Assembly (NCBI RefSeq): GCF_035917235.1 | Contig: NZ_CP108423.1 | Span: 7,965,501 to 8,029,500 of the forward strand | Origin: Streptomyces sp. NBC_01294 | Lineage (GTDB): Bacteria; Actinomycetota; Actinomycetes; Streptomycetales; Streptomycetaceae | Direction: 5' to 3' | DNA: 64,000 nt | Shown here: piece after piece, positions 27,810 through 53,633 of the stretch | Position numbering within the stretch: the stretch's first letter is position 1 | How the letters are laid out: the number at the start of each line of letters is the position of its first letter | The notes under the pieces: generated by a model | Database searches by the model: none | What the model saw: only the letters and a program-made list of their open reading frames with translations | Told to the model about the DNA's origin: nothing | Position numbers and translations under genes: made by a program

Positions 27810-28150
27810 CCGCTGCAACGGCGCCGCAGGAGCCATACCCGAAGACCACGACGAGGCGGCAGTCGAGCACGCTCGTGCCGTACTCGATGCTGCCCAGCAC
27901 CTCCGGACCCAGGACATGCCCTGCGGTGCGGACCATGATGAAGGCGTCGTCGCTTACCGCGCCGAGGATCAGGGCGGGACTCACCCCAGCCCGCTCCAGG
28001 CCGCGGCCTCCTTGAAGCCGATGACGTGCGCGCTGCCGGTGGGCCAGGAAGTCCACCGCCGGCGACACCACCCCGTCGCGGCGAACACTGCCCACAACCA
28101 GAGCGGGACCGCGAGCACGCCAGCCACCATCCCGTGCAGCCAGTACACCG
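27810..28150 (-). pseudogene. beta-carbonic anhydrase remnant
   Basis: The minus-strand frame reads DDAFIMVRTAGHVLGPEVLG, SIEYGTSVLDCRLVVVFGYG and SCGAVAA, which lines up with beta-class carbonic anhydrases (RTAGxxL...SIEYG...LVVVxGHxxCGAV). The zinc-ligand histidine of GHxxCG is tyrosine here (GYGSCG). The frame lacks the N-terminal Cys-Asp ligand segment CxDSR in recognisable form and the C-terminal third. The product, if made, could not hold zinc in the usual way. Confidence 0.6.
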
Positions 28151-28236
28151 ATGGCCGAGCCGGAAGGCGCGGACGCGGCGTGCCTCGTAGGTTGGCAGGA
28201 GCACCCGCGACCAGCGGAAGGACCGGCGCAAGGCCA

Positions 28237-29472
28237 GTGGTAAGCCAGATCGATCACCAGTTGTTGTTCGCGGCCACGCCCAGTCCCTATCTGGTGCTGG
28301 ACCCCGACCTGGTGATCGTCGATGTCAATGATGCCTACCTGAGGGTGACCGCGCGGGGTCGGCAGGAGCTGGTCGGGCAGTACCTGTTCGATGCCTTCCC
28401 GGACAATCCGGAGGATCCGAACGCCGACGGGGTGCGGAACCTGGGGGCCTCGCTGCACCGGGTCCTGCGGTCGAAGGAACCGGACACGATGGCAGTGCAG
28501 AAGTACGACATCCCAGTGGTGTCCCAGCCCGGCATGTTCGAGGAGCGGTGGTGGTCCCCCATCAACACCCCTGTTCTCGGGCCGGACGGGGAGGTGGTGT
28601 GGATCATCCACCGGGTGGAGGACGTGACCGAGTTCGTCCTCTCCCGCCCCGGCCACCCACAGAGCGGCACGCTGGGTAAGCGGGAGGCGATGGAAGCCGA
28701 GCTCTACGCGCGAGCACGGGAGTTGCAACGGCTGAACGAGGAACTGCGCCAGGCGCACGCCCGCGAACGCCAGATCGCCGTGACGCTGCAGGAGGCGATG
28801 CTGCACTCGCCCGACCTCGACGCGCACCGGAACATTGCCGTGCGCTATCTGCCCGCCGTCGGGTCACTGAACGTGTGCGGCGACTGGTACGACGTAGTCG
28901 ACCTTCCCGGTGACTGCTTCGGTGTCGCAGTCGGGGACGTCGTCGGCCACGGCCTGGAGGCCGCCACCATCATGGGCATGCTCCGCAGCGCACTGAGCGC
29001 CGCCACCAGGGCACTCCACGAGCCCGCCAGATCGTTGGAGGTCCTCGGCCTCTACGCCCGATCGGTCGAAGGAGCAGTGGCCACCACCGCCTTCAAAGCC
29101 GTAATCGACGCCAGCCGGCACCGGATCACCTACAGCAGCGCCGGCCACCCCCCACCGGTCCTGCTGCACCCCGACGGAACCTGCGACCTGCTGGACCAGG
29201 CGACCGACCCGCCCCTTGGAGCCCGACCCGAACACGTCACCCGGCCCCAGGCCGCCACGCCCTACACCAGTGGCGACACCCTGGTGCTCTACACCGACGG
29301 CCTCATCGAACGCCGCAGCGAGGACATCGACACCAGCCTGCACCGGCTCACCCACGCCCTGGCCGACTATGCCCGCATGAGCCCCAACCAACTCGCCGAC
29401 GCCCTGCTGTCCCGCCTCGGCGTAGCCGGCGGCGCCCGCGACGACATCGCCCTGGTCGTCGTGCGCCTCTGA
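28237..29472 (+). CDS. PAS-domain PP2C (SpoIIE-type) phosphatase
   Basis: A 411-residue signalling protein. Residues 10-130 form a PAS domain (FAATPSPYLVLDPDLVIVDV, VNDAYLRVT, ending WIIHRVEDVTEFV), followed by a coiled coil (EAELYARARELQRLNEELRQ) and a PP2C/SpoIIE phosphatase: GDWYDVVDLP, AVGDVVGHGLEAA, LYTDGLIERR, and DDIALVVVRL at the end. The aspartates of GDxYD, VGDVxGHG, TDG and DD build the metal site. Such proteins dephosphorylate anti-sigma-factor antagonists in actinobacteria after the PAS domain senses a ligand or redox change. The GTG start was chosen because the PAS domain begins there. No kinase partner is adjacent. Confidence 0.85.
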   Translation: MVSQIDHQLLFAATPSPYLVLDPDLVIVDVNDAYLRVTARGRQELVGQYLFDAFPDNPEDPNADGVRNLGASLHRVLRSKEPDTMAVQKYDIPVVSQPGMFEERWWSPINTPVLGPDGEVVWIIHRVEDVTEFVLSRPGHPQSGTLGKREAMEAELYARARELQRLNEELRQAHARERQIAVTLQEAMLHSPDLDAHRNIAVRYLPAVGSLNVCGDWYDVVDLPGDCFGVAVGDVVGHGLEAATIMGMLRSALSAATRALHEPARSLEVLGLYARSVEGAVATTAFKAVIDASRHRITYSSAGHPPPVLLHPDGTCDLLDQATDPPLGARPEHVTRPQAATPYTSGDTLVLYTDGLIERRSEDIDTSLHRLTHALADYARMSPNQLADALLSRLGVAGGARDDIALVVVRL

Positions 29473-31281: not shown

Positions 31282-32280
31282 ATGGAGTCGCGCCTGGTAT
31301 TCGTCCACGGGATCGGCGGCCTTCGCAACCCGGCTCGGGAGCTCACCGCCTGGAATCGGGCGTTGGCCGCCGGGATGCGGGAGGCCGGGCACTCCGCAGC
31401 CGCCCGTGACCTGGTCTCCGACGAATCGGGCAGGCACGCGTTCGTCCATTACGCCGACCTCTTCGGGCGCGGGCAGGCCCAGGGCGGGGACGCCCCCGAC
31501 GCCCCCGACGCCGCCGGTGGGGTCGGGGCGGAGGCGGAGATCCTTTCGGATCTGCTCGTCGCATGGGTGGACGGGCTGGCCGCGGAGCATTCCGACGAGC
31601 GGGATCGCAAGATCCTCGATCACGCCCGGTCGGAGGCCGAGCCGAGAGCGCAGGAGCAGGGCAGCCTGGCCGTCGTACGCCGCGCGCTCAACGTCGCGAC
31701 CACACTGCTGGCCCTCAAGCCGTGGGGAGCCGCGGCCCGGTGGATCACCCCCAAGATGATGGTGAGCCACCTCGGCCAGGTGGCCCGCTACTTGGCGCGT
31801 GCCGAGCCCGACGCTCAGGGCATCAGCCTCGACCGCCGCATCCGCGCCCGGGTCGCCGAGGCGATCGGGGACGGACCGGCCGTCGTGGTGGCGCATTCCC
31901 TGGGTTCGGTCGTCGCCCTGGAGACCCTGCATCAACTCGGCACACCGGTCCCGTTGTTCGTGACCCTCGGATCGCCGATCGCCACGCGGACCGTGGTGTG
32001 GCCCCGGCTCCTCCCTCAGCCCCCGAGTGTCCCCGAGAGCGTCGGCGAGTGGCTCAACTTCTGGGACCGGGACGACATCATCGCCGTTCGGCCCCACCTG
32101 GAAAAGGAGTTACGCCCCAGCGGAGGCGGAGTCGCCCCAACCAGCCGGCGCGTGGACTCTGACGGCACCTGGGTCCACGACGCCGCAAAGTACCTCGCCC
32201 AGCCGGCCGTCGCCGGTCCCGTCGCGCAAGCTCTGGCCGGAACGGCGGGTGGGCCCGGCAGCGGCGGTGGCTCCGGGTGA
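31282..32280 (+). CDS. alpha/beta-hydrolase at the head of the conflict-type operon
   Basis: A 332-residue enzyme starting MESRLVFVHGIGGLRNPARE. The HGIGG oxyanion-type loop at the N-terminus and the nucleophile elbow VVVAHSLGSVVAL in the second half mark an alpha/beta-hydrolase of the lipase/esterase (DUF676-like) type; candidate acid and histidine lie in DRDDIIAV and SDGTWVHDAAKY. It has no signal peptide, so it acts inside the cell, perhaps on lipids. The gene ends GTGA, overlapping the next start, and so belongs to the caspase-MoxR-vWA/TIR operon, where it may serve as an added effector. Confidence 0.75.
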   Translation: MESRLVFVHGIGGLRNPARELTAWNRALAAGMREAGHSAAARDLVSDESGRHAFVHYADLFGRGQAQGGDAPDAPDAAGGVGAEAEILSDLLVAWVDGLAAEHSDERDRKILDHARSEAEPRAQEQGSLAVVRRALNVATTLLALKPWGAAARWITPKMMVSHLGQVARYLARAEPDAQGISLDRRIRARVAEAIGDGPAVVVAHSLGSVVALETLHQLGTPVPLFVTLGSPIATRTVVWPRLLPQPPSVPESVGEWLNFWDRDDIIAVRPHLEKELRPSGGGVAPTSRRVDSDGTWVHDAAKYLAQPAVAGPVAQALAGTAGGPGSGGGSG

Positions 32281-34349
32281 GAGGCGGCCTGGGCGGCCGC
32301 CGTCACGTCCTGGTGGTGGCCCCGCACTGTGGATCGATGGTGCGGCTGGAGCGTCTGGAGGAGGCCGCCAACGGGCTGTACGAGGTACTGACCGACCCCT
32401 CGCTCGGAGCGTGCGAACCCGGCCTGCCGGACGGGCGCAGCGCGCTGGTCGCCGGTGACGGCCTGACCAGCAGCGCCGTCCGGGGAACGGTGGACGAGGC
32501 GATCGGATACGCGGCGCGGCACCATGCCGCGCTGGTCCTCGCCTTCCTCGGCCACGGATTCACGCCGGGCCGGACCAGCACCCTGCACCTCATGTGCGAG
32601 GACTCCACGGAAGACCTCCGGCACGACTCCGTGAACGTGCGCGATCTGCTGGCCGTCGCCGTGGACCACCCCGGAATCGACGGCGTACTCGGCCTCGTCG
32701 ACACCTGCCACGCGGGCGGGGCGCCACCCCCGGCCGAGGACCTCGCCGGGGGCGCACGCAACGGCCGCACCCGGCTGGGCCTGCTGATGGCCTCGTCCCT
32801 GGGCCAGCCGGCGGTCGATCTCGTATTCTCCCGGCACCTGACCGAACTCCTGCGCGCCGGGCGGCCCGGGGCGGGCAGCACCCTGGGCGTGAGCGAGGTG
32901 CGCGACGCCCTGCGCACCGTCGTCATCGGCCAGAACGTCACTGGATTCGACTACGACGGAGACGGCTCGGCCCGGGAGACGCTGTGGATCGCGCGCAACG
33001 CGCGGGTCCGCGAGGGTCTGCTCGGTGGGCTCGGCGGCCGACTTGCCGCGGAGGAGCTGACCGAGGCGCTCGCTGCCGTGGACCCGCGGATGCCCGTGCC
33101 CGACGCCACCCCGGACCTGGGGGCGGCTCTGCGGTGCCGAGCAGAACTCCTGTCGCACCCGCCCGCCGCGGCCCGTGAACGCGCGCTGCGCGGCGTCGAC
33201 GGGCTGCTCGTCGCAGTGCGCACGGTGCAGTTCGTCCGGGGCTGGATCGGCAGCGAGCTCACCACCGCCCGGATCCGGCACGCGCTGCACACCATGCTCG
33301 CGGCCGAGGGCCGGCTGCCGGCCGACCACCCCCACCTCACCGACATCGCCGTCATCGACGAGCTGACCTTCAACCATCCCGCCAACGACCCGGACGGCAG
33401 GCGCGCCGTCGCCCGTTTCGTGGCGCTGCTCGGCCAGGCTTGCGGGAAGGACCTCAAGGACCCCGAACTGCGTTCCTGGGCCGAGCGGATCGAAGCCCCC
33501 GTCGAGGTCAACGACGCCATCGAGCACGCCGCCCGGCGTACGGAGGGCCAGCGACTCGGCCTGGTCGTCAGTCTGCACTCCTCCCTCATCGGGGACTGGC
33601 CCGAAGTGCTGGACGGCTGGCTGCTCCTGGACGGTGCGATGATCCACCACGAGCAGTTTTCCAGTGAGACGGCGGACCGCAAGGGAGCCGAGAACGCGGT
33701 CGAGGACGCGGTGCTGTGGGCCGAGGAGCATGCCCGGTTGCTGGATCTCCCCCTGAAACGGCTTGACTTGGCGGTGCCCAGCGGGCTGCTCCTGGCCTGG
33801 CGGCCCGAGGAGGCCGGAGTCGCCATGCTGCTGGGGGTCCGCTACGAGGTGCGGCTGCACTGGAGCAACCGGCTCACACCAGACGCCGTGCTGCGCAGCG
33901 TCGAGCCCGTTGTCGCCGAGCGCTGGCAGTCGATCTCGCAGCACCAGGCCGGTACGCCCGTCGACTGGCTCGCGTACGAGGACCTCGCCGATCCGCACCT
34001 CCTGCGCGGGCACCTCCGTAGCGGCCGCTACACGCGGGGCATCGGCCTCACCCAGCACCCCGGCGCCGACGCCCGGCTCATGGAGATGCTGCTCGCCTAC
34101 ACGCCCGTCCTGCTGTGGCCGCACGCGCCGGACGGATTCCCGCGGGAGCGGCACGGCTGCCTGGACCGGAGCTGGTGGGCCATGCCGGGCGCCCTCGCGC
34201 ATGCCTACCGTGACCGCTGGCGCGGAGTCTCCGGCGCGGACCTGGCCGATCTCCGGGCGGTCTGGGACGACGAGGACTGGCTGCGCTTCTGCCGGTTCTT
34301 CAGGACCGTGACTCCCCCGACCCGTACCCGAGATGAGGGGACTCCATGA
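32277..34349 (+). CDS. caspase-like protease with VMAP-type C-terminus
   Basis: A 690-residue protein. The first 220 residues look like a caspase-fold peptidase: VLVVAPHCGSMVRLERLEEA, His93 in FLGHGFTPG, and Cys144 in GLVDTCHAGGA, the His-Cys dyad with the DxCxAG signature. A middle helical region follows. The C-terminal 250 residues (LVVSLHSSLIGDWPEVLDG, LDLPLKRLDLAVPSGLLL, WQSISQHQAGTPVDWL, RSWWAMPGALAHAYRDRWR) resemble the VMAP-C domain of vWA-MoxR-associated proteins, as described for actinobacterial conflict systems. It is coupled to MoxR by ATGA overlap. By family logic the C-terminus senses or couples to MoxR/vWA and unleashes the protease. Substrate unknown. Confidence 0.7.
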   Translation: MRGGLGGRRHVLVVAPHCGSMVRLERLEEAANGLYEVLTDPSLGACEPGLPDGRSALVAGDGLTSSAVRGTVDEAIGYAARHHAALVLAFLGHGFTPGRTSTLHLMCEDSTEDLRHDSVNVRDLLAVAVDHPGIDGVLGLVDTCHAGGAPPPAEDLAGGARNGRTRLGLLMASSLGQPAVDLVFSRHLTELLRAGRPGAGSTLGVSEVRDALRTVVIGQNVTGFDYDGDGSARETLWIARNARVREGLLGGLGGRLAAEELTEALAAVDPRMPVPDATPDLGAALRCRAELLSHPPAAARERALRGVDGLLVAVRTVQFVRGWIGSELTTARIRHALHTMLAAEGRLPADHPHLTDIAVIDELTFNHPANDPDGRRAVARFVALLGQACGKDLKDPELRSWAERIEAPVEVNDAIEHAARRTEGQRLGLVVSLHSSLIGDWPEVLDGWLLLDGAMIHHEQFSSETADRKGAENAVEDAVLWAEEHARLLDLPLKRLDLAVPSGLLLAWRPEEAGVAMLLGVRYEVRLHWSNRLTPDAVLRSVEPVVAERWQSISQHQAGTPVDWLAYEDLADPHLLRGHLRSGRYTRGIGLTQHPGADARLMEMLLAYTPVLLWPHAPDGFPRERHGCLDRSWWAMPGALAHAYRDRWRGVSGADLADLRAVWDDEDWLRFCRFFRTVTPPTRTRDEGTP

Positions 34350-35299
34350 CCCAGGACGCGTACTACCGGGGCGACGGCGTGCCGAGGGGCGGCACGGCCC
34401 TGCCCGAACCGCCCCCCTGGCGCACCTTCCCGAGGAGCTCGGCGGCCGGCGTGTTCCGGCCGCCGGCCGGGCTGACCGAGGCGGTGAACGCGGCCCTCGC
34501 GCTGCGTCGGCCGCTGCTGATCACCGGCGGCCCCGGCACCGGGAAGTCCACGGTGATCGAGCAGGTCGCCGCGGAGCTGGCGCTGGGGCCCGTACTGCTC
34601 TGGCACATCACCTCGCGCAGCAGCCTCGCGGACGCGCTCTACCGCTACGACGCCCTCGGCCGGATCCACGCCCACCGGCTCCAGCAGGAGAAGGCGCAGG
34701 CGGGCGGGGACGCGGGGGTGGACGATGTGGCGGCCTTCCTGACCCTCGGGCCGCTGGGCACCGCGCTGCTGCCGTCGAAGCGTCCGCGCGCGCTGCTCAT
34801 CGACGAGATCGACAAGGCCGACCTCGACCTGCCGGGAGACCTCCTCGACGTCCTGGAACGCGGGGAGTTCCGCATCGCCGAGCTGATGCGCGAGGAACAG
34901 CAGACCGCCCGCGTGCGGACCTGGGAGAGCGATGTGCGGCACGTGGTGGAAGACGGCCACGTGCAGTGCACCGAGTTCCCCTTCATCGTGATGACGAGCA
35001 ACGGTGAACAGGAGCTGCCCGCGCCCTTCCTGCGCCGCTGCGTGCGCTACACCATGCCCAAGCCGACCGCCGCACTCATCCGTGACGTGGTACACGGCCA
35101 TCTGGGGCTGGAAGTAGGTGAATCGGGGCCGACCGCGGAACTCGTCGACGAGTTCGTACGTCGGGTAGCGTCGGGCGAGAGCGTGGCCGTCGACCAGCTC
35201 CTGGGCACCCTGCATCTGTTGAACGGTCCCACCCGGTCGCACGGGACCGAACGCGAGCGGCTCATCGCCCTCCTCATGAAGGACCTCTCGGGTGTCTGA
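34346..35299 (+). CDS. MoxR-type AAA+ ATPase
   Basis: A 317-residue ATPase. Walker A is ITGGPGTGKSTV (Lys67), Walker B LLIDEIDKADLDLPG (Asp153-Glu154), sensor-1 IVMTSNGEQELP and the arginine-finger stretch PAPFLRRCVRYTMP. This is the MoxR branch, whose members pair with vWA proteins and remodel partners using ATP. Start overlaps the stop of the caspase gene and its stop overlaps the vWA/TIR gene by eight bases, so the stoichiometry of the three is probably fixed by coupled translation. Cytoplasmic. Confidence 0.85.
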   Translation: MTQDAYYRGDGVPRGGTALPEPPPWRTFPRSSAAGVFRPPAGLTEAVNAALALRRPLLITGGPGTGKSTVIEQVAAELALGPVLLWHITSRSSLADALYRYDALGRIHAHRLQQEKAQAGGDAGVDDVAAFLTLGPLGTALLPSKRPRALLIDEIDKADLDLPGDLLDVLERGEFRIAELMREEQQTARVRTWESDVRHVVEDGHVQCTEFPFIVMTSNGEQELPAPFLRRCVRYTMPKPTAALIRDVVHGHLGLEVGESGPTAELVDEFVRRVASGESVAVDQLLGTLHLLNGPTRSHGTERERLIALLMKDLSGV

Positions 35300-38135
35300 G
35301 GAACGCCCGGGGCTCCTGGAGCCCCAGGCGCCCCAGGACCCGCTGGCGGCCGTGGTGTCGGCGCTCCACGGACTCGGCCGGGACCTGGACGGACTCTCCG
35401 TCGCCGAGCTCCTCTGGCTCGCCGCCCGTACGCGGAGCGGTCGTGCGGAGGATGAGGGCGGGGCGGACCCGAGCAGGGCCGCGGACGGCTCCGTCGGGGC
35501 TGTCGACCCGCGTGAACGCCTCAGCTCCTGGGGGCCGTTGACGACTCCGGTGTACGGCCCTTCGGTCCCCGGCGGCGACGGTGTGCCCGCCCGGGAGGTG
35601 TCCGTACCCCGGGCATCCGCACTGCCCCGAGCCCGGGAGATCGCCCGCGCCCTGCGTCCGCTGCGACGGCCGTGGGCGGCGGGGCGCAGACAGCAGCTGG
35701 ACATCGGGGAGACGGTGTCCGGTTATGCCCGAAGCGGTGAACTTCTCCCCGCGTTCCGCCCGGCACCGGAGCGCTGGTTCGACCTGACCGTCGTCCTCGA
35801 CCGGTCCCCGACCATGGCCGTGTGGGGGGATACCGTCGAGGAGTTGCTGAAGGTCCTCGCCACGACGGGAGCCTTCCGTACGCTCCGGGTTCGGGAGGTG
35901 AACGCCTGGGAGGCGGAGCCCCGCGCTGGGGGCGTCGGGTCCAGGACGGCGCAGCAGCGGCGGCTGGTGCTCGTCTTCTCGGACTACGTATCGGGGGCCG
36001 GAGGCGAGGACGGGCTGTGGGACCGGATTCACGGCTGGGCCGGCGCCACCCCCACCGTGCTCGTGAACCCGCTGCCGCCGAAGATCTGGCGACACACGGG
36101 GCTCGATCTGCCGGCGGTAAAGGTCACGACTCCCGGGGCGCCCGGTGTGCCCAACGCCCGCCTGCACTTCCTGGCGCCGCCACTGATGGAGGAGGTGTTC
36201 GACCTGCCGGGCGACCGCCGGACCACCTGGCTGCCGCTGCCGGTCGTCGGACTGACACCGCGCTCCCTCGCGCGCTGGGCCCGCACGCTCATGCGCGGGG
36301 ATCCCGAGGGATGTGAGGCGGTCCTGGTCCCGGCGCCGGGCGCGGTGAGCCGGACGCCGACACCCCCGAACACGCCTCTGGATGCCGACCAGTTGGTTGA
36401 CGCCTTCCTGCACCGGGCGTCGGCGCCCGCCGTCCGGCTGGCCGTGCTCTGCTCCACGTACCCGCAGACGAGTGCGGGGATGCTGCATCTGGTGCGGCAG
36501 GAACTGGTCCCGGAGGCGAGCCCGGCCGACATGGCCGAGGTGATCGTCGGCGGCCTGGTTTCGGTCGACGAAGGCGGGCTGGTGGCCGGCGGCCCGGTCC
36601 TGACCTTCCGGGACGGTGTCCGCGAACGGCTGGCTCCCCGCCTCGGCGCGCGCGACGCACTGCGCACGCGGGACACCGTGAGCCGGTTCATCGCGGAGCA
36701 CGCCGACGCCGCGTCGCGCCTTCCGGCACTTGTCCCCGATCCGGACGGGGATGCGGAGGTCCCGTCCGGCGGCGCACCGTTCGCGGAGGTGTCCCCGCGG
36801 ACCCTGCGGGCGCTGGATCCGGTGGCCAACCCGGTGGCGGATCACGGTGACGAGCGACCGTACTTCTTCCTCAGCTACGCGCACACCCCGCGCTTCAGCG
36901 AAACCGGCGCGGACCCGGACATGTGGGTCCAGATGCTCTTCCGCGACCTGTCCTCCCACGTCATGGCTCTGACGGACCTGCCGTCCGGATACCCGGTGGG
37001 GTTCATGGACCGGCAACTCCGCTCTGGGGAGGGCTGGTCGGACCGCCTCGGAGAGGTGCTGGCGACCTGCCGGACGTTCGTACCCCTCTTTTCCCCGCGC
37101 TACTTCGCCAGTGAGACGTGCGGCAAGGAGTGGTTCGCCTTCGCCCAGAGAACCGCCTACCACCAGGCACGGAGCGCCTCGGCGGTGAAGGCGATCGTTC
37201 CCGCCTCGTGGGTTCCCGTGCCACCGCACCACCTCCCGTATGTTGCCAGGCGGTTGGACTTCGACCACAGCGTGTTCGGCGAGCGGTACGCGACCGACGG
37301 ACTCTACGGTCTGATCAAACTGCGCGGGTACGCAGAGCAGTACGAGCGTGCGGTGTACGAACTGGCCAGGCGGATCGTCCGCGTAGCGGACACCGCGAAC
37401 ATCGCCGTCGGCCGCCGCGTCGACTACCGGACGGCTCCGAGTGCCTTCGAAACGCTGACCTCGTCCCCGGATCAGAGCAACCTGCGGATCGCCGTGGTGG
37501 CACCCACCGTGCGCGACCTTCCTGAGGGTCGTGACGCCCACTACTATGGCGACAGCCCCGACGACTGGAATCCGTACTACTCCGATTCCAGGAGGCCACT
37601 GGCGCACATGGCCACCGAGCTGGCGTTCCACCTGAACAACCAGGTGAACATGTCCACATTCGACGAGGAGCTCTCCAGGGCCGACAACCGTATACCTCCG
37701 CGCGGGCCGTTGATCCTGCTCGTGGACCGGTGGGCACTATTGGTGCCGGCCTTGCGGGACGGACTGGCGGCACTGGAGGCGGTGAACCCGGCGGGAATGA
37801 GCCTGGTCATCGCCTGGAGCCGGTACGACCGGCAGAGTCACGCCTCGGATGTCGAGCTGGCCTCCAGGCTGAACCGCACGCTTCCGAATCTGATGAGCCG
37901 GACCTTGGGGAACTCCTCGGCCGCAGCACGGGGCGTGCTCGGCATGGAGGACTTCGGCGCGGTCATGCCGCAAGTCGTAGCCGCGACCTACCAGGACTAC
38001 CTCAGGCACGCCGAGGCGTACCCACCCACCAAGGCCTACCCGCCCGAGGCGCCCAGGCCCCGGCTGCGCGGGCCCATGCGAGCCATGCCGCCCTCTCCCG
38101 AACCCCTTTTCCCGGACGAGCCCGAAGAAACCTGA
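35292..38135 (+). CDS. SAV_2336-type vWA protein fused to a TIR-FxsC-like region
   Basis: A 947-residue protein with three parts. Residues 1-160 carry the SAV_2336-like N-terminus (VVSALHGLGRDLDGLSVAEL). A vWA domain follows with the metal-site variant DRSPTM (DxSxT) in FDLTVVLDRSPTMAVWG and a later VFSDYVSGAGG. Residues 523-665 are TIR-like: ERPYFFLSYAHTPRFSE, PLFSPRYFASETCGKEWFAF, with Glu613 placed like the catalytic Glu of NAD-cleaving TIRs. Residues 720-925 match the FxsC C-terminal region (RIAVVAPTVRDLPEGRDAHY, NPAGMSLVIAWSRYD). Together with MoxR it would form the vWA-MoxR pair; the TIR part may be a second effector. The final 30 residues are Pro-rich. Confidence 0.75.
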   Translation: MSEERPGLLEPQAPQDPLAAVVSALHGLGRDLDGLSVAELLWLAARTRSGRAEDEGGADPSRAADGSVGAVDPRERLSSWGPLTTPVYGPSVPGGDGVPAREVSVPRASALPRAREIARALRPLRRPWAAGRRQQLDIGETVSGYARSGELLPAFRPAPERWFDLTVVLDRSPTMAVWGDTVEELLKVLATTGAFRTLRVREVNAWEAEPRAGGVGSRTAQQRRLVLVFSDYVSGAGGEDGLWDRIHGWAGATPTVLVNPLPPKIWRHTGLDLPAVKVTTPGAPGVPNARLHFLAPPLMEEVFDLPGDRRTTWLPLPVVGLTPRSLARWARTLMRGDPEGCEAVLVPAPGAVSRTPTPPNTPLDADQLVDAFLHRASAPAVRLAVLCSTYPQTSAGMLHLVRQELVPEASPADMAEVIVGGLVSVDEGGLVAGGPVLTFRDGVRERLAPRLGARDALRTRDTVSRFIAEHADAASRLPALVPDPDGDAEVPSGGAPFAEVSPRTLRALDPVANPVADHGDERPYFFLSYAHTPRFSETGADPDMWVQMLFRDLSSHVMALTDLPSGYPVGFMDRQLRSGEGWSDRLGEVLATCRTFVPLFSPRYFASETCGKEWFAFAQRTAYHQARSASAVKAIVPASWVPVPPHHLPYVARRLDFDHSVFGERYATDGLYGLIKLRGYAEQYERAVYELARRIVRVADTANIAVGRRVDYRTAPSAFETLTSSPDQSNLRIAVVAPTVRDLPEGRDAHYYGDSPDDWNPYYSDSRRPLAHMATELAFHLNNQVNMSTFDEELSRADNRIPPRGPLILLVDRWALLVPALRDGLAALEAVNPAGMSLVIAWSRYDRQSHASDVELASRLNRTLPNLMSRTLGNSSAAARGVLGMEDFGAVMPQVVAATYQDYLRHAEAYPPTKAYPPEAPRPRLRGPMRAMPPSPEPLFPDEPEET

Positions 38136-40870: not shown

Positions 40871-41111
40871 CGATACATTCCGCAACGTCGTTTCGACCCA
40901 CCGTGCCCCGAACGGCGCTGACCCCACGGCGGGCCATGCCTCACCTCCGCATCCAAGGCGCGGTCGTCCCTCGACCTCCGGCCCCGGGTCGGCATCTGCC
41001 GTCACGGCGCCATCGACACCACCTCCGGCCTGCCGGTTTCACCCCTGTGGAGGCACACGGCAGCAGCGGCTAGTGTGAGGTGGGAAGGCTGTGGGCGAGC
41101 CAGGAGCCGTT

Positions 41112-41942
41112 ATGCGCGGACACCGTCCCGAGCCGTCCGAAAGTGTGCAGGATCTTCTGGTCGCCCTCGGGCAGCTCGTCGATCAGGCCCTGGAACGGGT
41201 CGAGTACCAGCGGGCCAGGGTCGAGCTGGCCGTCGCCCTGCAACGCCATATGCTCCCACCCGGGCTGCCGGAGTTGCCCGGCCTGCACCTGGCCGCCAGG
41301 TACGCGCCGTCACGAGGCGGTCTGGAAGTAGGCGGTGACTGGTACGACGCCTTCGTCATGTACGACGGGTCACTGGGGCTCACGGTCGGCGACGTACAGG
41401 GCCACGACGTGGAGGCCATCGCCTTCATGGGGCAGGTGCGGACCAGCCTGCGCGCCCTCGCACAGGCGACGAGCGACACCCGAGAGGTACTGGCCCGCGC
41501 CAACGATCTGCTGATCGCCATGGGGTGTGGTCTCTTCGCCACGTGCTGCTTCCTTCGCTTCGACCCGGTCAGCCGCGATCTGACGGCCTCCAGGGCCGGC
41601 CATGTCCCGATGGTCTGGGCGACAGCCGGAGGCCGTCATGGCATAGCACTCGACCGCGGCGGGCCGCCGCTCGGCATCGTGTCGGGTCAGCGGTATCCGG
41701 TGACCCACCGGCGACTGACCGAGGCAGGGGTGCTCGTGCTGCTCACCGACGGAGTGGTCGAGGGCCCGAACTTCCCGATGGAGTCCGGTCTGGCCGAGGT
41801 GGCCAAGCTGGTGCGCGCGGGGTTCGACGCCGATCCCGACGTGCTCGCCTCCGCCGTCGTGAAAGTGGCCGACCTGACGGGACACCGCGACGATGCCGCA
41901 GTCCTCGTCGTCCGCTACGACGGCCCGCAGGAGCCGGCCTGA
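41112..41942 (+). CDS. SpoIIE-type PP2C phosphatase
   Basis: A 276-residue phosphatase (ATG start MRGHRPEPSESVQDLLVALG; a GTG 21 bases earlier is also in frame). A short coiled helix (LVDQALERVEYQRARVELAV) links to the catalytic domain: LQRHMLPPGLPELPG, GGDWYDAFVMYDG, TVGDVQGHDVEAI, LLTDGVVEG and HRDDAAVLVVRYD. All metal-binding aspartates are present; the usual GHG is GHD. It has no sensor domain of its own. The gene is followed after 70 bases by a MASE1 membrane sensor gene, which may supply the input. Confidence 0.8.
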   Translation: MRGHRPEPSESVQDLLVALGQLVDQALERVEYQRARVELAVALQRHMLPPGLPELPGLHLAARYAPSRGGLEVGGDWYDAFVMYDGSLGLTVGDVQGHDVEAIAFMGQVRTSLRALAQATSDTREVLARANDLLIAMGCGLFATCCFLRFDPVSRDLTASRAGHVPMVWATAGGRHGIALDRGGPPLGIVSGQRYPVTHRRLTEAGVLVLLTDGVVEGPNFPMESGLAEVAKLVRAGFDADPDVLASAVVKVADLTGHRDDAAVLVVRYDGPQEPA

Positions 41943-43689: not shown

Positions 43690-44345
43690 CAAGGTTCGGC
43701 GGGTCTCGGCAGTAGCAGGCATGCAGGCGGCTGCGCCAGCACAGCGTCATCGAAGATCACCCCGGTGAAATCGAGGTCGCAGCCCTCCCAGGAGGCCGCA
43801 GACCCACTGATTCGGGGGCACAGATGATCGCGGACCACGCGGATCACCGTGTGGCGGACCTCGCGGGTGGCCTGCCAGGCCAACCGCTCCTCCAGCGGCG
43901 CGGACTCGGCCGGCTCGGCCGGCTCGGCCGGGTAGGGCATGCGCAGGTAGGCGCACAGCACGTCGATGCACGTCTGTCGGCGTTCGCTTCGGCCCAGTCA
44001 TCGGCCAGGCCGGCCATTGCGTGGATGCCCGCCAGGCGGCAAGCGGGCTCCTCGTGCCCAAGCAACTCGGCAGCCGTGGCGAAGCGCTCGTTGAGCAGCC
44101 GCGCCTGCTCGTGCCTCAGTCCCTCCTGGGCACTTCGGCGCAGCCGTCTGGCCGAGAACCAGGCCGCGAACCACGCAATCACGCCACCCGATGAGGGTGG
44201 CTGCCGGAACGGCCCACCAGGGGGCACCCGAAGCCTCACCCTGCCCTTGATCCTGGGAATACGGGCTCGCGGAAAGCAGCCGTATCCGGACACTGCCTAC
44301 CGCCCCGGTCAGCGTCGCCATGGCCGTCACCCTAGATCGAGCCAC
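43690..44345 (-). pseudogene. broken pentapeptide-repeat-type protein
   Basis: The parts of one protein are in three frames: a membrane segment (WWAVPAATLIG, then GVIAWFAAWFSARRLRR), a helical stretch (RLLNERFATAAELLGHEEPA, GIHAMAGLADDW), and LCAYLRMPYPAEPAEPAESA then CDLDFTGVIFDDAVL. In Streptomyces this is the N-terminal half of membrane-anchored pentapeptide-repeat proteins; the repeats that should follow DFTGVVFD are missing. Two frameshifts plus the truncation mean it is inactive. Confidence 0.6.
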
Positions 44346-44436
44346 CTCTCAGCCCGGCAGGACAGACCCGTCCGGTGCTGTGTGAAGGGAGTGCCACCGG
44401 GTCGAGTCCGTCCCGGACAGCGGGACGCGGTGTGCG

Positions 44437-44480
44437 CACCACGACCCCCTCCCGGATGGTTCCGGGAGGGGGTCGTGGTG
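44437..44480. terminator. very stable 20-bp hairpin
   Basis: Two 20-base arms (caccacgaccccctcccgga and its exact complement) flank a four-base loop. It lies 3' of both the minus-strand metzincin gene and free DNA, so it probably terminates transcription arriving from the right. No T-run follows. Confidence 0.7.
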
Positions 44481-44502
44481 AATCCGCCGGGCGCGGCAGC
44501 CG

Positions 44503-46946
44503 CTACCGACCGCCGCCGTCGGCGAGCTGCTGCTCCAGCTTGCGGACTCGCTTGACCACACCTGGCTTGACCCGGCGGCTCTCCAGGGTCCGGGCAAGAT
44601 CGCCCACCAGCTGAGTGGCGTCCCGGCCCTCGCCCTGTTGGTCGAGCGACCGGGCCATGTGCTCGATGTTGCGGGTCAGACGGATGTGGCCGAACGTCTC
44701 GGCGGCGGCGTTCAAGTCGCCGTACGCCTGCTCGGCGCGCTGCCAACCCGACTCGGTGTCGGACGTCGTGAGCTCCAGGCGCGGACCCGTACCGTCGCCA
44801 CCACCCTGCATGATCTTGCCCGGGACGGTATCCGCCAGCGCCAGGCAGGCGGCGGCGTGTTTGGCGACGCCCTCGTCGGGAATCCGGTCCACGACCTCGC
44901 GCAGTACGTCGTTGGCTCCGTGCAGCACCCGGCTTCCGCCCAGCGCCAGCACGCGTCCCGGACGGAGTCCGTGCAGACGTCGTCCGCCAGTTGCTCCTGC
45001 TCACGGCTGGCCGGGCGCTCCACCCGGCGATGAGCGGCGCGGCCATGACCTGCCCGGCGAGGCACCGGCGCCGGAGGCCGCTGTACCGTCGGCGACCGTA
45101 CGCAGCGCGGCGTACACACGGTACGTACCGGGCTCGGCGATCTGCCAGCCGCCCAGTCCGGAGCTGAGCACGACCTGCCCGTAGAGTGCCTCGCCGGGCT
45201 GCAGCACCACGGGTTCGGGGCGCATGCAGTACCGCAGGTAGGGCCGGTGCATCCGGGCCTCGGTCTCTCCCTCACGCTGGATGACGATGCCGAGGTCGTC
45301 GCCCTTCAGCTTGTTGCGGTCGACCATCACCGGGTCGGTGGAGGTGTTGGCCAGCTTCAGCTCACCGATCACCGGCTCGAGCATGCCGTAGCGGTACGCG
45401 CCCTCGTGGTCGGGGTTGCGGCTGACGCGGAGCGAGAGCGTCAGCGTGCCGGGGGCGGAGTACTGGCGGACCTGCTCGAAGGCGTGGTGGTCGAACCACG
45501 GGATGTTGCCCATCTGCACGAACCGCTCGGGTGCGTGCTGCAGAACCGCAGCTCGTTCTCCGAGAAGAAGTACCCAGTCGGAGAGAACGGTGAGGCCCGC
45601 CGGGGTGGGGCTTCCGGAACGGGTAGTTCATGAAGCTCCGGGCAGTCGGCTCGTCGGCGAGCGGCATCCACGGAGTCTCCAGCGACTTCTGCCAGGAGTG
45701 CGCGAGGTTGAAACAGTGCCCGAGCTCGTGCACGGCCGTCCAGAAGCGCATCCGGCGGGCGAACGCCTCAGGCGCGGGGTCGTTCGGCGGCCGCTCGGAG
45801 ATGAACGAGTCGGAGAAGATCGCGCAGCCCTGCCGCTGGGCGGTGCCGATGTCGTCGAACATGATGCCGCCGAGGCTGAGGCCGTCGTCGTGCAGACCTG
45901 CGAACAGGGTCCACACCTGCCACTGGGCGACGCCCTGTCCGCCGGGCCCGGGCTTCCACTCGGACCAGTGCTGCTGCATCGCGTCGTGCATCTCGATGTC
46001 GGACCACTTGTCGTTGACGGAGGCCGAGCGTGGGATCATGTTGCTGCCGCGGGTGCGGGTGACCTTGATTCCCTGCCGGGTGAAGGCATCCTCCACCGTG
46101 AGGGTGATGTCGGGGAGGCCGGCGGGCCGCACCGGGTGGTCGTGCAGCGCGTACGCATCCGTCTGCTCGGCCCCCTCGACGCGGTCGAACTCGATCCCGA
46201 CCTCACGGAATGCCGACCGCGCGAAGGCGTAGCCGAGGACCAGGTCGGCCGCGCCCGGGCGGCTGAAGGTCACCCGCGCGGAGAGCGGCTGCAGCGGCGG
46301 GCGGCCGGTGAGCTGCACGCGGATCGAGGTGGCGGGGCGCAGGGAGGTGTTGCCGTCGCGGTAGCTGATCGGGCCGGCGTACGAGCCGTCCGGCTGCTTG
46401 GTCACCTTGGCGATCCAGGTGAGACCGCCGGTGATGAGCCGCCAGATGCGGCCCGAGACGGTCATCGTGGGGGCGGGCCCGTCCACGTCCACGCGGAGTT
46501 CCTCGAACAGGCCGAGGGCGGCGCCGGGCTGGATCGTCTCGGCCGGCGGCTGACCGTTCTGGGGCTGCTCGGCCGCGATCGCGGTCCCGTCGGGAAGGGC
46601 GCCCGCCGCCATCGCCGCACCGGTCGGCCGCAGCCTCGGGCGCGACCATGCCGGGCATCGTCGTGATGTTCTCCACGACCTGCGCGCCGTCGTGGTCGGG
46701 GGCGGGGACGATGGGCAGGTCGGTGCGGACGTACACGCCGCTGCGCTGGACCAGGAGGGCCGCGGCCGACGCTGTCGGCTGAGCGCCGGCCGCCGTGTCC
46801 CAGCGGTCCTGGACGCCCTCGGCGTAGGGATCCGAGCCGTAGCCGGCTCGGGCCCGGCCGTCACCGGCAAGGCGGGAGATCTCTTCGACGACAGAGCGGA
46901 CGAGCTCGTCCAGCCCACTCGGCGGGCGGTGCTTCTGCGTGGTCAT
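44503..46946 (-). pseudogene. frameshifted metzincin-type metalloprotease
   Basis: From ATG (MTTQKHRPPSGLDELVRSVV) to its stop the coding pattern changes frame at about 46630, 45610, 45550 and several times between 45060 and 44950. Assembled, it is about 810 residues. The zinc site is HELGHCFNLAH (HExxHxxxxxH) with the Met-turn SFMNYPF downstream, so the protein was a metzincin-clan protease. An N-terminal beta-rich region (RVQLTGRPPLQPLSARVTFS) and a helical C-terminus (EQAYGDLNAAAETFGHIRLT) flank it. No signal peptide is visible. The start overlaps the upstream gene's stop (ATGA), so both formed a module. Either heavily decayed or a poor-quality stretch of sequence. Confidence 0.65.
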
Positions 46947-47632
46947 GCCGGCCTCTCCTCAGCCCGGGCTCCGTCGCCCGGGCGTGGTGGTGCAGCGGAA
47001 GGGGTGGGTGTCCGGCCGCTTCGGGGCGCGTGGCGCGCGGGTGTGTGGCCCGCGGGTGTGTGGCCCGCGCGGGTGTGTATCCCGCGGGTGTCTGGCCTGT
47101 CGACATGCCCTGCCACATCCGCGGAGGGAGTTGCGACGGTTGGGATGCCTGAGCGCGATGCGGACGCCTGCCGAACAGGCCGGGAGTGTGCGCTCCGTCC
47201 GGTTGTGCCACCGAGCGCACACCCCTGCCCTTGGAAGGCCGGTCCCTTCAAGTGGAAGTGCAACCAACCTGGGTCGCAATCCGGCCGCGTCCGATCGAGC
47301 CCGTCCGCGGAGCGGCTCGCCCGGCAGACGTGCCGGTCACACGTAACGGGGGAGGTCTCCGCGCGGACGGTGAGGCCGCCGTCAGCGTCGAGATCGACCA
47401 GCACCGCCTTGGTGACGGTCGTGTCGATCTCCACACTCCGGTGCGGCCCTCCCTGGACCGAGACCTCCACCGTGACCCCGCCGTCCCGTACCGGAACCTC
47501 GAGGGAACGGGCCAGGCCGATCTGCCGTCTGGTGTGCACCGAGGGGTCGTCCAGGATGACGGTTCCGTCCACCGTGACCACGACGTGCTCGCCCTGGAAG
47601 TCCTCCTGCAGCGCGATCTGAAGCACGCTCAT
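46943..47632 (-). CDS. hypothetical partner of the metzincin
   Basis: A 229-residue protein. The first 100 residues are beta-rich (MSVLQIALQEDFQGEHVVVT, LEVPVRDGGVTVEVSVQGG, IDTTVTKAVLVDLDADGGL), like a small domain of carbohydrate- or protein-binding type. The rest is low-complexity, with a Thr-Arg/Gly-His repeat region near the C-terminus (HTRAGHTPAGHTPARHAPR) encoded by imperfect DNA repeats. It ends ATGA, overlapping the metzincin start. It could be a targeting or inhibitor protein of the protease, but this is only inferred from coupling. Confidence 0.55.
   Translation of the reverse strand: MSVLQIALQEDFQGEHVVVTVDGTVILDDPSVHTRRQIGLARSLEVPVRDGGVTVEVSVQGGPHRSVEIDTTVTKAVLVDLDADGGLTVRAETSPVTCDRHVCRASRSADGLDRTRPDCDPGWLHFHLKGPAFQGQGCALGGTTGRSAHSRPVRQASASRSGIPTVATPSADVAGHVDRPDTRGIHTRAGHTPAGHTPARHAPRSGRTPTPSAAPPRPGDGARAEERPA
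47021..47105. repeat. imperfect short tandem repeats
   Basis: Units of the type (c)gcgggtgtgtggcc recur four to five times with small changes inside the 3' part of the hypothetical gene. They explain its His/Thr/Ala repeat. Confidence 0.6.
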
Positions 47633-48132
47633 GGCTCCCGCCTCACTTCGTCGGCCTCGCGACAGGCTTCTGACGCCCCGACGATACGACGGCCGGCCCC
47701 CGACGGCCTTCCGACGCCGACCCGCCCGGCCCCTGTCGGAGTCGGCCGCGGCGCGACGGGCGCGGGCTGCGCCCGCCGCTGTCGTTGCGGCTTCCCGGAC
47801 GTCGAACCCACGGGCGTCAGGTGAGCGCGGAGGTGTGGATCTTGCGAGCCCGTACCACTCCCGAAGACCTGCTCGCGCAGCATCCTGACGGTGCCGGCGT
47901 CCAGCCGACGTGAGCCCGATCGGGGCGCCCGCACCGTAGATCCTGAGTGCCCAGTCCGGCATCTTCCGCCGGTCGACCGGCGACGGACCGGTCGCGATTC
48001 CCTCGCCTTCGAACGCCGCTTGTCGCTTGCCGTTGCCCGGACGCGACCGGCTGCGCGCCGGAGAGTCCACCGGGGGAGTGCGGCTACGGCCGCCGCTACG
48101 CGTTGAACCGGGGCGATCGAGTGAAGGGGGCA
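47633..48132. other. gene-free stretch left of the IS element
   Basis: No coding frame was recognised. A 26-base string beginning at 47934 differs in only two positions from one at 739 at the left of the window. The stretch ends at the IS inverted repeat. Confidence 0.45.
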
Positions 48133-48998
48133 TTTAGACGTCGTTTCTTATGGCGTGATCGTTCGTTGAACCGTGCATGACGGATCTGGTTGAGCGGCTG
48201 GTGCCGGACGAGTTGTGGGTGCTGTTTCGGCGGGTGGTACCGCCGACGGAGGTCATACGTCCACAGGGTGGCGGCCGGCGTCGAGCGGGTGACCGCGAGG
48301 CATTGGCCGCAATCATCTTCGTGGCGACGTCGGGCTGCACCTGGCGGCAGCTGCCGCCGGTGTTCGGCCCGAGCTGGCAGACCGTCTACCGACGATTTGC
48401 CCAGTGGAGCCGGGCCCGGGTCTGGGCCCGGCTCCACCGCGTCATCCTCGACGAACTCGGGGCCCGCGGGGAACTGGACTGGTCGCGCTGCGCGATCGAT
48501 TCGGTCAGCATGCGGGCTGCAAAAGGGGGCCTCTGACGGGACCGAATCCGACCGACCGTGGCAAGCCGGGATCGAAAATCCACCTGATCACCGACCGGAA
48601 CGGGCTGCCGCTCTCGCTGGGCGTCTCCGGCGCGAACATGCACGACAGTCTCGGTCTTGAACCACTCGTGCGGGGCATCCCGCCGATCCGGTCCCGGCGA
48701 GGACCTCGTCGACGGCGCCCCGGCAAGCTCCACGCGGACAAGGGCTACGACTACGACCACCTGCGCCGATGGCTCCGCAAACGCGGCATCCGCCATCGCA
48801 TCGCCCGCCGTGGTATCGAGTCCTCACAACGGCTCGGCCGCCACAGGTGGGTCGTCGAAAGAACCGTGTCCTGGCTCGCCGGCTGCCGTCGGCTCCACCG
48901 CCGATACGAGCGCAAGGCCGAACACTTCCTCGCCTTCGTCGGCATAGCTGCAGCACTCATCTGTCACCGCCGCCTCACCAAATGAAACGACCTCTTAG
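48133..48998 (+). mobile_element. IS5-family insertion sequence (IS427-like)
   Basis: Imperfect 23-base terminal inverted repeats (left core gacgtcgtttcttatgg; right core, reversed, gaggtcgtttcatttgg) enclose an 866-base element with a two-frame transposase. Size, repeats and frame layout fit the IS427 group. The right end abuts the stop codon of the next gene. Confidence 0.8.
48177..48985 (+). CDS. IS5-family transposase, two frames
   Basis: The first frame (119 residues, MTDLVERLVPDELWVLFRRV, GCTWRQLPPVFGPSWQTVYR, ending SVSMRAAKGGL) has the DUF4096-type N-terminus and the first catalytic Asp in the CAIDSVSMRAAK segment. The second frame overlaps it and carries KPGSKIHLITDRNGLPL, the HADKGYDYDHLRRWLRKRG segment with the second Asp, and VVERTVSWLAGCRRLHRRYE with the catalytic Glu. 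A slippery aaaaggggg just before the first stop would allow a programmed -1 shift to make full-length DDE transposase. Probably functional. Confidence 0.8.
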
Positions 48999-49423
48999 AG
49001 GGTCAGGCTGACGATCCAGTAGTCGTACTCCTCCGCGGTGATGCCGCAGATGTGGTCGCCGGAGGAGGACCGGGCGATGAATTCGATCCGTCCTTGGTCA
49101 TCGATGAGGCGGGCGACGTCGGCACTGTCCGTGAGACGCACGCGGACCCAGCCGACCCCGGAACTCCCCGTCACGACCGCCGTGAGGAGGAACGTCCCGT
49201 CAACACCGATGACATCGGCTCGGCGGGCATGTTCGAGCCACATCTGGTGGACTCCTCCGAGGTCTCCCTTCAAGGGGAAGGAGGCACTGGGCTCCACGCC
49301 GAATCCCGCCATGGCACGCCAGGCCGTTTCGACCGAGGGTCCAGGTTCGTTGCCCTGGACCCTGTCCACTTCGAGGCCGCTGCCCCGGATGAGTTCGACG
49401 AGGTTGTCCTCGCTGGTGCGCAT
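48995..49423 (-). CDS. hypothetical protein, possible immunity protein
   Basis: A 142-residue acidic protein with a perfect ribosome site (aggag, 8 bases before ATG). It starts MRTSEDNLVELIRGSGLEVD and ends in a beta segment (GITAEEYDYWIVSLTL). Small acidic proteins directly after a toxin tail are often immunity proteins; here the preceding 21+ codons (SGYKTMERYRAIDKPGGDHH, FFYEEK, stop) look like the end of a larger truncated gene. The IS element's right inverted repeat supplies the TAA stop, so the original C-terminus may have been cut. The function is inferred from position only. Confidence 0.5.
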   Translation of the reverse strand: MRTSEDNLVELIRGSGLEVDRVQGNEPGPSVETAWRAMAGFGVEPSASFPLKGDLGGVHQMWLEHARRADVIGVDGTFLLTAVVTGSSGVGWVRVRLTDSADVARLIDDQGRIEFIARSSSGDHICGITAEEYDYWIVSLTL

Positions 49424-49424
49424 G

Positions 49425-49510
49425 TTATTTCTCCTCGTAGAAGAAGTGGTGGTCTCCGCCGGGCTTGTCGATGGCTCGGTAGCGTTCCATGGTCTTGTAG
49501 CCACTGGATG
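49425..49510 (-). pseudogene. 3' end of a truncated gene, possibly a toxin
   Basis: The frame SGYKTMERYRAIDKPGGDHH, FFYEEK, stop has coding-like codons, and ends one base before the next ATG region with the ribosome site of the next gene inside it. It is joined at its left end to the broken recombinase. Polymorphic toxins often end with such short charged segments before an immunity gene. Confidence 0.35.
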
Positions 49511-50035
49511 CCGCCGGCCTGGATGCCGCCGGCCTGGAGGTCGACGGACAGCGTCATCAGCTCGGCCGCGTTCCTGGCCAGACGCTTGAGCTCCTGCACT
49601 GTGAGGATGACGGGTGTCTCCGGGGCGGCTTCCTTGAACTGGTGGGCTGGCGAGAGCGCCTTCTCCAGTTCGGGCCGCAGCTTGATGCGGGTGCTGATCT
49701 GCTCCTTGAAGACCTTGTGGCATTCCGCACGGTGGAAGGCTTCGAGCTGACTCGCCGGCTCTTGGCGGGCGGTCGAGGTGCGGGCGTACCCGATCCGGAG
49801 CGGCCGCTCGGTGCGGGGCGCGGGCACGACAGCGAGCGCCGGGCCCTGCTTCCACGCCGGGCCGGGGAGCCGGTCGGCGGGTACGGGGATCTCCAGTTCC
49901 TCGCGGAGCGCGGAGCGCGGGGACGAGGACGAAGCGGAGGGTGTGGTACTTCGCGGCGGTCTTTCCGCCCCGGGTGCGGCAGGCGCTGCCAGCGGGTGCT
50001 TCACAGTTCGGGCAGTCGTGACGTTCTACCGCCAA
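49511..50035 (-). pseudogene. serine recombinase, truncated and frameshifted
   Basis: The N-terminal zinc-finger-like start of Streptomyces recombinases (VERHDCPNCEAPAGSACRTR, GGKTAAKYHTLRF) is followed, in another frame, by the resolvase domain RIGYARTSTARQEPASQLEA with the catalytic serine of RTST and the ELKRLARNAAEL helix. A 9-codon-level duplication (QAGGIQAGGIQ) marks the end, where the C-terminal DNA-binding domain is missing. It cannot catalyse recombination. Confidence 0.75.
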
Positions 50036-50115
50036 TGCAGCACAACATGCAGGTTTTGAGAAGCTTTTCGCGAGTGGCGACCTGCGGAAACGTGATCACT
50101 TCCGGGGCTCTCGCG

Positions 50116-50147
50116 GAACTCTCACAGATGGTCATCTGTGAGAGTTC
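50116..50147. promoter_or_regulatory. perfect 15-bp inverted repeat upstream of the ArsR-family gene
   Basis: Arms gaactctcacagatg and catctgtgagagttc are exact complements with two bases between. It is 40 bases upstream of the regulator and could be either an operator or a terminator for the recombinase side. Confidence 0.6.
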
Positions 50148-50153
50148 AAGGTT

Positions 50154-50167
50154 TCCTGAATTCAGGA
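50154..50167. promoter_or_regulatory. 14-bp palindrome, likely metal-sensor operator
   Basis: The perfect palindrome tcctgaattcagga ends 19 bases before the start of the ArsR-family gene. Its position over the promoter suits autorepression by this sensor, released by metal. Confidence 0.5.
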
Positions 50168-50186
50168 TTGCGTGTACTGTCGTGGG

Positions 50187-50522
50187 GTGCTGACTCTCGC
50201 CCGTGACATCGAGGTTCTGGCCCGGTTCGGCCGCGCGCTCGCCGATCCGATCCGCTGCCGCATCCTGCTCGCCCTGCGCGACGCCCCCGCCTACCCTGCC
50301 GACCTCGCCGACGCCCTCGGCATTTCCCGCACCCGGCTGTCGAACCATCTGGCGTGCCTGCGCGACTGCGGCCTGGTCGTCGCCATGCCCGACGGCCGGC
50401 GGACCCGCTACGAGCTGGCCGACGAACGACTTGGCCACGCGCTGGACGACCTGCGTACGGCCGTGGTGGCCGTCGAGACCGACCGAACGTGCGTCGAAGC
50501 CGAGTCGAAGGGCTGCTGCTGA
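50187..50522 (+). CDS. cmtR: ArsR/SmtB-family cadmium/lead sensor, CmtR-like
   Basis: A 111-residue winged-helix repressor beginning MLTLARDIEVLARFGRALAD. The HTH is ISRTRLSNHLACLRDCGLVV, and the cysteines in HLACLRDC plus one near the C-terminus (DRTCVE) line up with Cys57, Cys61 and Cys102 that bind cadmium or lead in the Mycobacterium CmtR. Metal binding would release the DNA. The GTG start fits the conserved MLT start of the family; two palindromes lie upstream. Downstream the metal efflux gene that usually follows has collapsed to a remnant. Confidence 0.8.
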   Translation: MLTLARDIEVLARFGRALADPIRCRILLALRDAPAYPADLADALGISRTRLSNHLACLRDCGLVVAMPDGRRTRYELADERLGHALDDLRTAVVAVETDRTCVEAESKGCC

Positions 50523-51307: not shown

Positions 51308-51343
51308 TTGCGACGCCGCACCTGGAGCCGGGGCACAGGTGGC

Positions 51344-51514: not shown

Positions 51515-51559
51515 CTCCCGCTGATCCAAGAGCAATCTCGGCGCCAACCACGGTTCCAT

Positions 51560-51830: not shown

Positions 51831-51849
51831 ATGTCGCACACCCACACAA

Positions 51850-52771: not shown

Positions 52772-52836
52772 GGGGCTCTCCTCTGCTTTGGGGTGCCCCA
52801 AATTAGCGTGTCGTGAGCTGTCGCTCTTGTAAGAAA

Positions 52837-53594: not shown

Positions 53595-53633
53595 GAAGGC
53601 ACACGCGTGCCGCACGCATGGGGTCCAGCCTTC

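Follow-up and report, generated by a model that had tools for sequence, protein, structure and literature searches.

In a 64,000-nucleotide stretch of the Streptomyces sp. NBC_01294 chromosome (contig NZ_CP108423.1, positions 7,965,501 to 8,029,500; hereafter the window), four genes lie on the forward strand at 31282..38135 and overlap successively by 4, 4, and 8 bases. They encode, in order, an alpha/beta-hydrolase (P0001), a caspase-VMAP protein (P0002), a MoxR ATPase (P0003), and a vWA-TIR-FxsC protein (P0004). Its gene order and domains place the operon among the VMAP ternary conflict systems, in the caspase subtype, with a predicted role against invaders. We consider it probable that the hydrolase is a gated pro-enzyme, unlocked by two cuts of the caspase encoded in the next gene, because the hydrolase is a separate upstream gene, the protease is fused to the sensor, and two conserved sites lie in a variable region of the hydrolase.

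31282..32280, + strand: alpha/beta-hydrolase gene P0001, 332 aa, predicted gated pro-enzyme
32277..34349, + strand: caspase-VMAP gene P0002, 690 aa (open reading frame; PF19965 VMAP-M2, E 2.5e-62)
34346..35299, + strand: MoxR-type AAA+ ATPase gene P0003, 317 aa (AAA_5, E 1.5e-8)
35292..38135, + strand: vWA-TIR-FxsC gene P0004, 947 aa (open reading frame, domain matches)

The neighboring caspase, and two Gln-Gly sites in the hydrolase

Relatives of the hydrolase were compared in two alignments. A1 holds the window and 35 relatives (L085 was left out, its hydrolase being cut by the locus edge), and A3 holds the window plus 77 relatives that extend to Amycolatopsis, Nocardia, and Crossiella; these 77 come from 80 named loci, the best 80 of at least 536 confirmed relatives, with L093, L116, and L135 left out. 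Residues 62-132 of P0001, bounds picked after the alignment was seen, are variable, and the only four columns among them conserved at 90% or above are Gln-Gly 67-68 and Gln-Gly 126-127 (A1).

31480..31485, + strand: predicted cut site 1, Q67-G68, in the coil 62-77 (36/36 rows of A1, 74/78 of A3)
31657..31662, + strand: predicted cut site 2, Q126-G127, in a coil between helices (36/36 rows of A1, 78/78 of A3)
31483..31659, + strand: segment between the sites, residues 68-126, variable in length and sequence, with modelled helices 78-102 and 106-119

The distance from G68 to the residue before Q126 ranges from 49 to 67 residues in A1 and from 44 to 74 in A3, and site 1 adjoins the sole stretch of the structural model with pLDDT <50 (69-76). 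With a pair of conserved sites in a stretch that otherwise varies, and a protease gene adjacent, P0001 has the marks of a gated pro-enzyme whose cutting is predicted. A third Gln-Gly of P0001, at 179-180, is not conserved. Cut sites of this kind elsewhere in the operon were rejected, as P0002, P0003, and P0004 lack any Gln-Gly. The triplet AQG is rarer than expected in VMAP proteins (1 versus 8.5), an observation to which we give little weight because EG is depleted too.

The hydrolase itself has an alpha/beta-hydrolase fold with Ser-Asp-His, and a lipase-like activity is predicted for it. A sequence search of the PDB gave no convincing match. In model comparisons with known structures (VIA-align 2), lysosomal phospholipase A2 and Bacillus subtilis lipase A share 17-20% identity with the hydrolase. 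The latter, a minimal lipase of 179 residues, covers 158 of the 332 model residues, leaving about half of P0001 as extra sequence that includes the 44-74 residue gate segment.

31891..31905, + strand: nucleophile elbow A204-H-S206-L-G208 (H205, S206, L207, and G208 in 78/78 rows)
32065..32076, + strand: acidic motif D262-R-D264-D265 with the candidate catalytic Asp (D262 and D265 in 78/78 rows)
32176..32178, + strand: H299, candidate catalytic His (78/78 rows)

The protein encoded next door begins with a caspase fold carrying a His/Cys dyad, as the initial annotation had proposed for the N-terminus of the 690-residue protein. The caspase alignment (A4) draws on 51 of the 80 loci. Downstream of the caspase, the PF19965 VMAP-M2 match reaches 210.8 bits against a cut-off of 27.7, and the C-terminal region, for which no Pfam match was found at E up to 1, contains the invariant residues P510, W529, P610, W614, W633, W663, F671, and C672.

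32301..32996, + strand: caspase domain, residues 9-240
32553..32555, + strand: caspase His93 (52/52 rows)
32706..32708, + strand: caspase Cys144 (52/52 rows)
32871..33521, + strand: VMAP-M2 region, residues 199-415, overlapping the end of the caspase domain
33555..34310, + strand: C-terminal alpha+beta region in the place of VMAP-C, residues 427-678 (from the model)

The paracaspase MALT1, which shares 15% identity with the P0002 caspase, cuts after Arg, whereas P0002 is fused to VMAP and is predicted to cut at Gln.

Matching of the two sites in distant homologues

The more distant homologues L265-L304 carry other residues at both places (TKG/TKA, TRG/TRG, TLA/TLV, GKA/GKA), and the two tend to change together. 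The matching rule compares the non-small residues at positions 10 and 11 downstream of the Tyr57 column with those at positions 8 and 7 upstream of the Arg133 column, and scores a match when they have a letter in common. This rule was applied to 34 representatives, the near copies L280 and L288 having been dropped along with L277, L289, L298, and L304 (partial or divergent alignment), while L275, L283, and L160 were kept although no caspase was found beside them. A match was seen in 25 of the 34, against 12.8 expected (0/100000 permutations, kinship ignored), and in 9 of the 12 Gln-free representatives, against 3.4 expected (8/100000, kinship likewise ignored). Across 29 slid position combinations the best result was 6 versus 2.8 expected (p 0.025). 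The matched pairs comprise five residue types: Gln, Arg, Lys, Leu, and Met.

The same rule was then run on genomes not seen before, because its positions had been chosen on the data just described. The held-out set consists of 25 new loci among the best 30 matches, from which L309 (site windows as in L307) and L318 (anchor failed, though scored as a match by the rule) were dropped. Among the held-out hydrolases that bear the insert, 12/14 match, against 3.6 expected (1/200000 permutations, kinship ignored); the two misses are L314, which is Lys/Lys by eye, and L321. When about 5 kb to each side is included, a caspase is present in 13 of 14 held-out loci. One held-out hydrolase, L313, is Met/Met, and its 61% identical relative L312 is Lys/Lys. 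Homologues without the insert match no more often than chance: 1/8 versus 1.5 expected in the first set, where no caspase was detected within about 5 kb to each side (eight of ten such rows were counted, the near copies L296 and L301 being left out), and 3/9 versus 3.0 expected in the held-out set, where none was found within 1.5 kb to each side.

On the caspase side, the position three residues ahead of the GHG motif holds Tyr in the 23 proteins of Arg, Lys, Leu, and Met type (with L338, which has Phe, as the one exception) and a residue other than Tyr in the 22 of Gln type. This potential pocket residue is a lead only, because its pattern follows clades.

Genomic pairing and architecture of the operon

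VMAP-M2 matches over the cut-off occur in 26/295 sampled genomes of the genus and 13/200 of the family (this genome being in both samples), and in 2/296 genomes of the phylum, both from the genus (this genome and another). From the PF19965 matches, 39 relative loci were fetched; the weak matches in G037, G111, G166, G269, G274, and G345 and the second copy in G049 are not among them, and L091 and L092, both weak M2 matches, contain none of the four genes. The hydrolase lies beside a P0002 match in 36/37 relative loci, so that the linkage which the initial annotation had wished to see surveyed is kept, and all four genes are found in 33 of the 37, with L044 lacking a MoxR match. In L058 and L059, the hydrolase is paired with a caspase that TPR-like repeats (by eye) follow, without MoxR or vWA matches in the stretch fetched. 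In L085, the hydrolase lies about 3 kb from a VMAP whose caspase start is missing, which is probably an insertion or a broken locus. The sole locus without the hydrolase, L090, encodes a VMAP-M2 protein in which a transglutaminase-like domain (by eye) replaces the caspase, making it a natural control for the pairing.

With a strict profile, a caspase is detected in 71 of the 80 named loci. Fifteen of these encode it divergently from the hydrolase, on the other strand, and show neither a VMAP-M2 nor a VMAP-C match; they belong to Amycolatopsis, Kibdelosporangium, Crossiella, one Nocardia, and one metagenome-assembled genome. The nine loci without a caspase match are seven from Nocardia, L105, and L116; each of the seven Nocardia genomes has 3 to 7 caspase matches elsewhere, and the L105 genome has a weak one only. 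Of the 40 more distant homologues, 26 have a caspase nearby according to an iterated profile. The occurrence of the pair in other settings (TPR-like repeats in L058 and L059, divergent caspases in 15/80 loci), together with the absence of the hydrolase from L090, speaks for gating by the caspase. The genome of the window has a second hydrolase-caspase pair at both chromosome ends (L291 at G000:C1:31700-42700, and L205 near 8.189 Mb); its two presumed sites both carry Gln, the triplets being AQS and PQD in one copy and PQN in the other.

The pairing has been described before. In the available excerpts of Kaur et al. 2020 (PMC7159879), VMAPs with a caspase-superfamily domain are stated to be always accompanied by a neighboring alpha/beta-hydrolase gene, and this is taken to suggest that the two "operate together." The view of the initial annotation that the hydrolase is an undescribed addition therefore falls. 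The VMAP-MoxR-vWA order, the VMAP-M region, the N-terminal caspase, the hydrolase neighbor, and the variable vWA effectors are shared with the ternary systems of those excerpts, which for this subtype describe neither activation of the hydrolase by the caspase nor cut sites; the operon in the window differs from the norm given there in that its middle region is M2 and not the common M0, and in that one MoxR motif has lost its Trp. In the literature searched (bioRxiv, most subscription journals, and supplements lay outside its scope), gating of this hydrolase by the caspase was not found.

The genes for VMAP, MoxR, and vWA follow one another on one strand, as in a VMAP ternary system, and their order is kept in relatives. 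In the MoxR protein, each residue of the PPWR motif is found in 33 or 34 of 34 rows. The N-terminal motif PsWRxa is present as PPWRTF, with W25 and R26 in 34/34 rows; of the WxhapG motif, Y7 and G9 are kept, and the leading Trp (33/34 rows) is Gln in the window (residue 3, 34352-34354). In the vWA protein, D170 is found in 34/35 rows, S172 in 28/35, and D231 in 35/35.

35400..36704, + strand: SAV_2336-type vWA region, residues 37-471 (NF041121, E 1.3e-96)
36858..37391, + strand: TIR / FxsC N-terminal domain, residues 523-700 (NF040588, E 7.5e-65)
37482..38069, + strand: FxsC C-terminal domain, residues 731-926 (TIGR04276, E 5.5e-53)

The TIR-FxsC region can be ruled out as a constant part of the system. 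All 35 vWA proteins, the window's included, have SAV_2336, and only 13 have FxsC; the C-termini of the others carry TPR, AAC(3)-like, helicase, TerD, NB-ARC, ParA-like, and further domains. The region may be a second, separate, exchangeable effector. Within it, E613 is found in all 13 FxsC-bearing proteins, including that of the window, and we take this Glu to be the candidate catalytic residue of the TIR domain. The FxsC N- and C-terminal domains, both above NCBIfam cut-offs, are held in common with FxSxx-COOH peptide systems, but here FxsC is fused to the vWA protein as an effector. Another FxsC C-terminal match lies elsewhere in the same genome (G000:C1:6364456-6365037; L032, L062).

The open reading frames and domain matches agree with the four coupled, overlapping genes of the initial annotation, and its caspase-type VMAP, MoxR, and vWA system with a TIR effector is borne out by the PF19965, AAA_5, NF041121, and NF040588 matches. 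PADLOC made no call on P0001, P0002, or P0004, and searches with Rfam and for tRNAs gave 0 matches each. Positions 1-63896 of the window recur inverted near the other (left) chromosome end as a long terminal inverted repeat, whose copies are 99.9-100% identical for window 1-44175 and 96.7% for 44175-63896, with identity falling toward the chromosome end. Because the window sits within this repeat, the genome has two copies of the operon. Genes for SpoIIE/PP2C-like phosphatases (27916-29472 and 41091-41942; by eye, from translation only) flank the operon at a distance of a few kb.

Proposed activation, alternatives, and implications

In the mechanism that we propose, VMAP (M2 and the C-terminal region), MoxR, and the vWA protein would form an ATP-driven sensor and switch, and a trigger would turn on the caspase fused to VMAP. 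Its substrate would be the hydrolase from the preceding gene, with segment 68-126 as the gate. Cuts at or near Gln67-Gly68 and Gln126-Gly127 would remove or loosen the helical hairpin, and the freed lipase-like serine hydrolase could then attack membrane lipids or other esters, stopping the infected hypha. A precedent is found in the available parts of Tuck et al. 2025 (PMC12799240): in the Hachiman system HamMAB, a trypsin domain fused to HamA cuts an upstream pro-nuclease, HamM, after two conserved Ile, one in each of two disordered gating insertions; AVAST (Avs1a) works like HamMAB, with cleavage activating the nuclease; and in Canu, activation of a nuclease by a caspase is proposed, since defense requires the active sites of both enzymes as well as the two predicted cut sites. 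Like these systems, as described there, the operon has a separate enzyme gene beside a protease, two conserved residues at cut sites (predicted ones here), and a pair that moves between systems, and as in HamMAB and Avs the enzyme gene is upstream of a protease fused to the defense core protein. The enzyme here is an alpha/beta-hydrolase and not an MBL-fold nuclease, so that the likeness to HamM, Avs1a, and CanC is one of analogy and not of membership in the HamM family. Both sites here bracket one segment, while those of HamM, in that account, sit in two insertions; predicted cleavage is at Gln, Arg, Lys, Leu, or Met, compared with Ile in HamM.

Several observations weigh against caspase gating. 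Site 1 is lost, and site 2 kept, in four caspase-linked Streptomyces relatives (L104, L112, L113, and L123), whose caspases or gating may differ from the rest, and the seven Nocardia hydrolases and L105 keep both Gln-Gly pairs with no caspase found next door. Nine of the 34 representatives miss the matching rule; L267, L270, L278, L285, L286, and L287 appear matched by eye, and L274, L282, and L284 are unmatched even so. The rule positions for these 34 were chosen with the sequences already seen, and the division of the held-out set by presence of the insert was made post hoc; pooled, and with L318 included, 16/24 match. An unbiased window test on shared 3-mers in all 36 rows is weak (393/20000), and without the Gln types it is not significant (2614/20000). 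The permutation tests ignore kinship, and a tree-aware test has 2 to 4 usable pairs, too few for significance; in those pairs the second site is mostly the same or shifted likewise, and rarely opposite.

The low power of the tree-aware test and the weak window test would suit an explanation in which the Gln-Gly pairs are structural, serving in helix capping or as a hinge, and match through shared ancestry and low-complexity sequence. We find this hard to credit, since site 1 lies next to a part of the model that is disordered, the matched pairs comprise five residue types and recur in the held-out insert-bearing rows, and the insert-less homologues match no more than chance. The hydrolase and caspase could also be parallel effectors, both released by the MoxR-vWA switch and neither acting on the other, in keeping with the catalytic-type residues conserved in both and with the words "operate together" in the excerpts of Kaur et al. 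(PMC7159879), which go no further. Such independence, which we regard as unlikely, does not predict identical Gln-Gly pairs in a variable segment, nor that both would change together to Arg, Lys, Leu, or Met. Because of these matched sites, the protease is more likely to be a trigger than a separate killer, and the three potential effectors counted in the initial annotation are probably one too many, the caspase serving to activate the hydrolase.

Cut sites predict cleavage and not its sign, and the caspase might instead switch the hydrolase off or release the segment, about 59 residues long here, as a signal or toxin peptide. This seems improbable: the segment has no inner column conserved at 90% and varies in length from 44 to 74 residues, which would be odd for an active peptide, and cleavage activates in HamMAB, AVAST, and Canu as reported in the available parts of PMC12799240. 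A further alternative concerns function and is compatible with gating by the caspase. The hydrolase could be an acyl-protein thioesterase or another esterase in an operon for development and not phage defense, an assignment that we think possible, if distinctly the less favored.

Returning to gating by the caspase, we lean toward a broader interpretation in which hydrolase and caspase make up a portable "caspase-gated lipase" cassette of actinobacterial immunity that serves VMAP, TPR, and other sensors, with the cutting specificity written twice in the hydrolase and co-evolving (Gln, Arg, Lys, Leu, Met). A specificity recorded in this way would therefore make that of the caspase readable from sequence. 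If this is true, the pairing noted in the excerpts of Kaur et al. would become directly testable through a substrate with two predicted cut sites, and the specificity of an entire group of bacterial caspases would be predicted. Activation by proteolysis, as a strategy of bacterial immunity, would extend from nucleases to a lipase-like effector, giving bacterial caspases a route to membrane damage without a pore protein.

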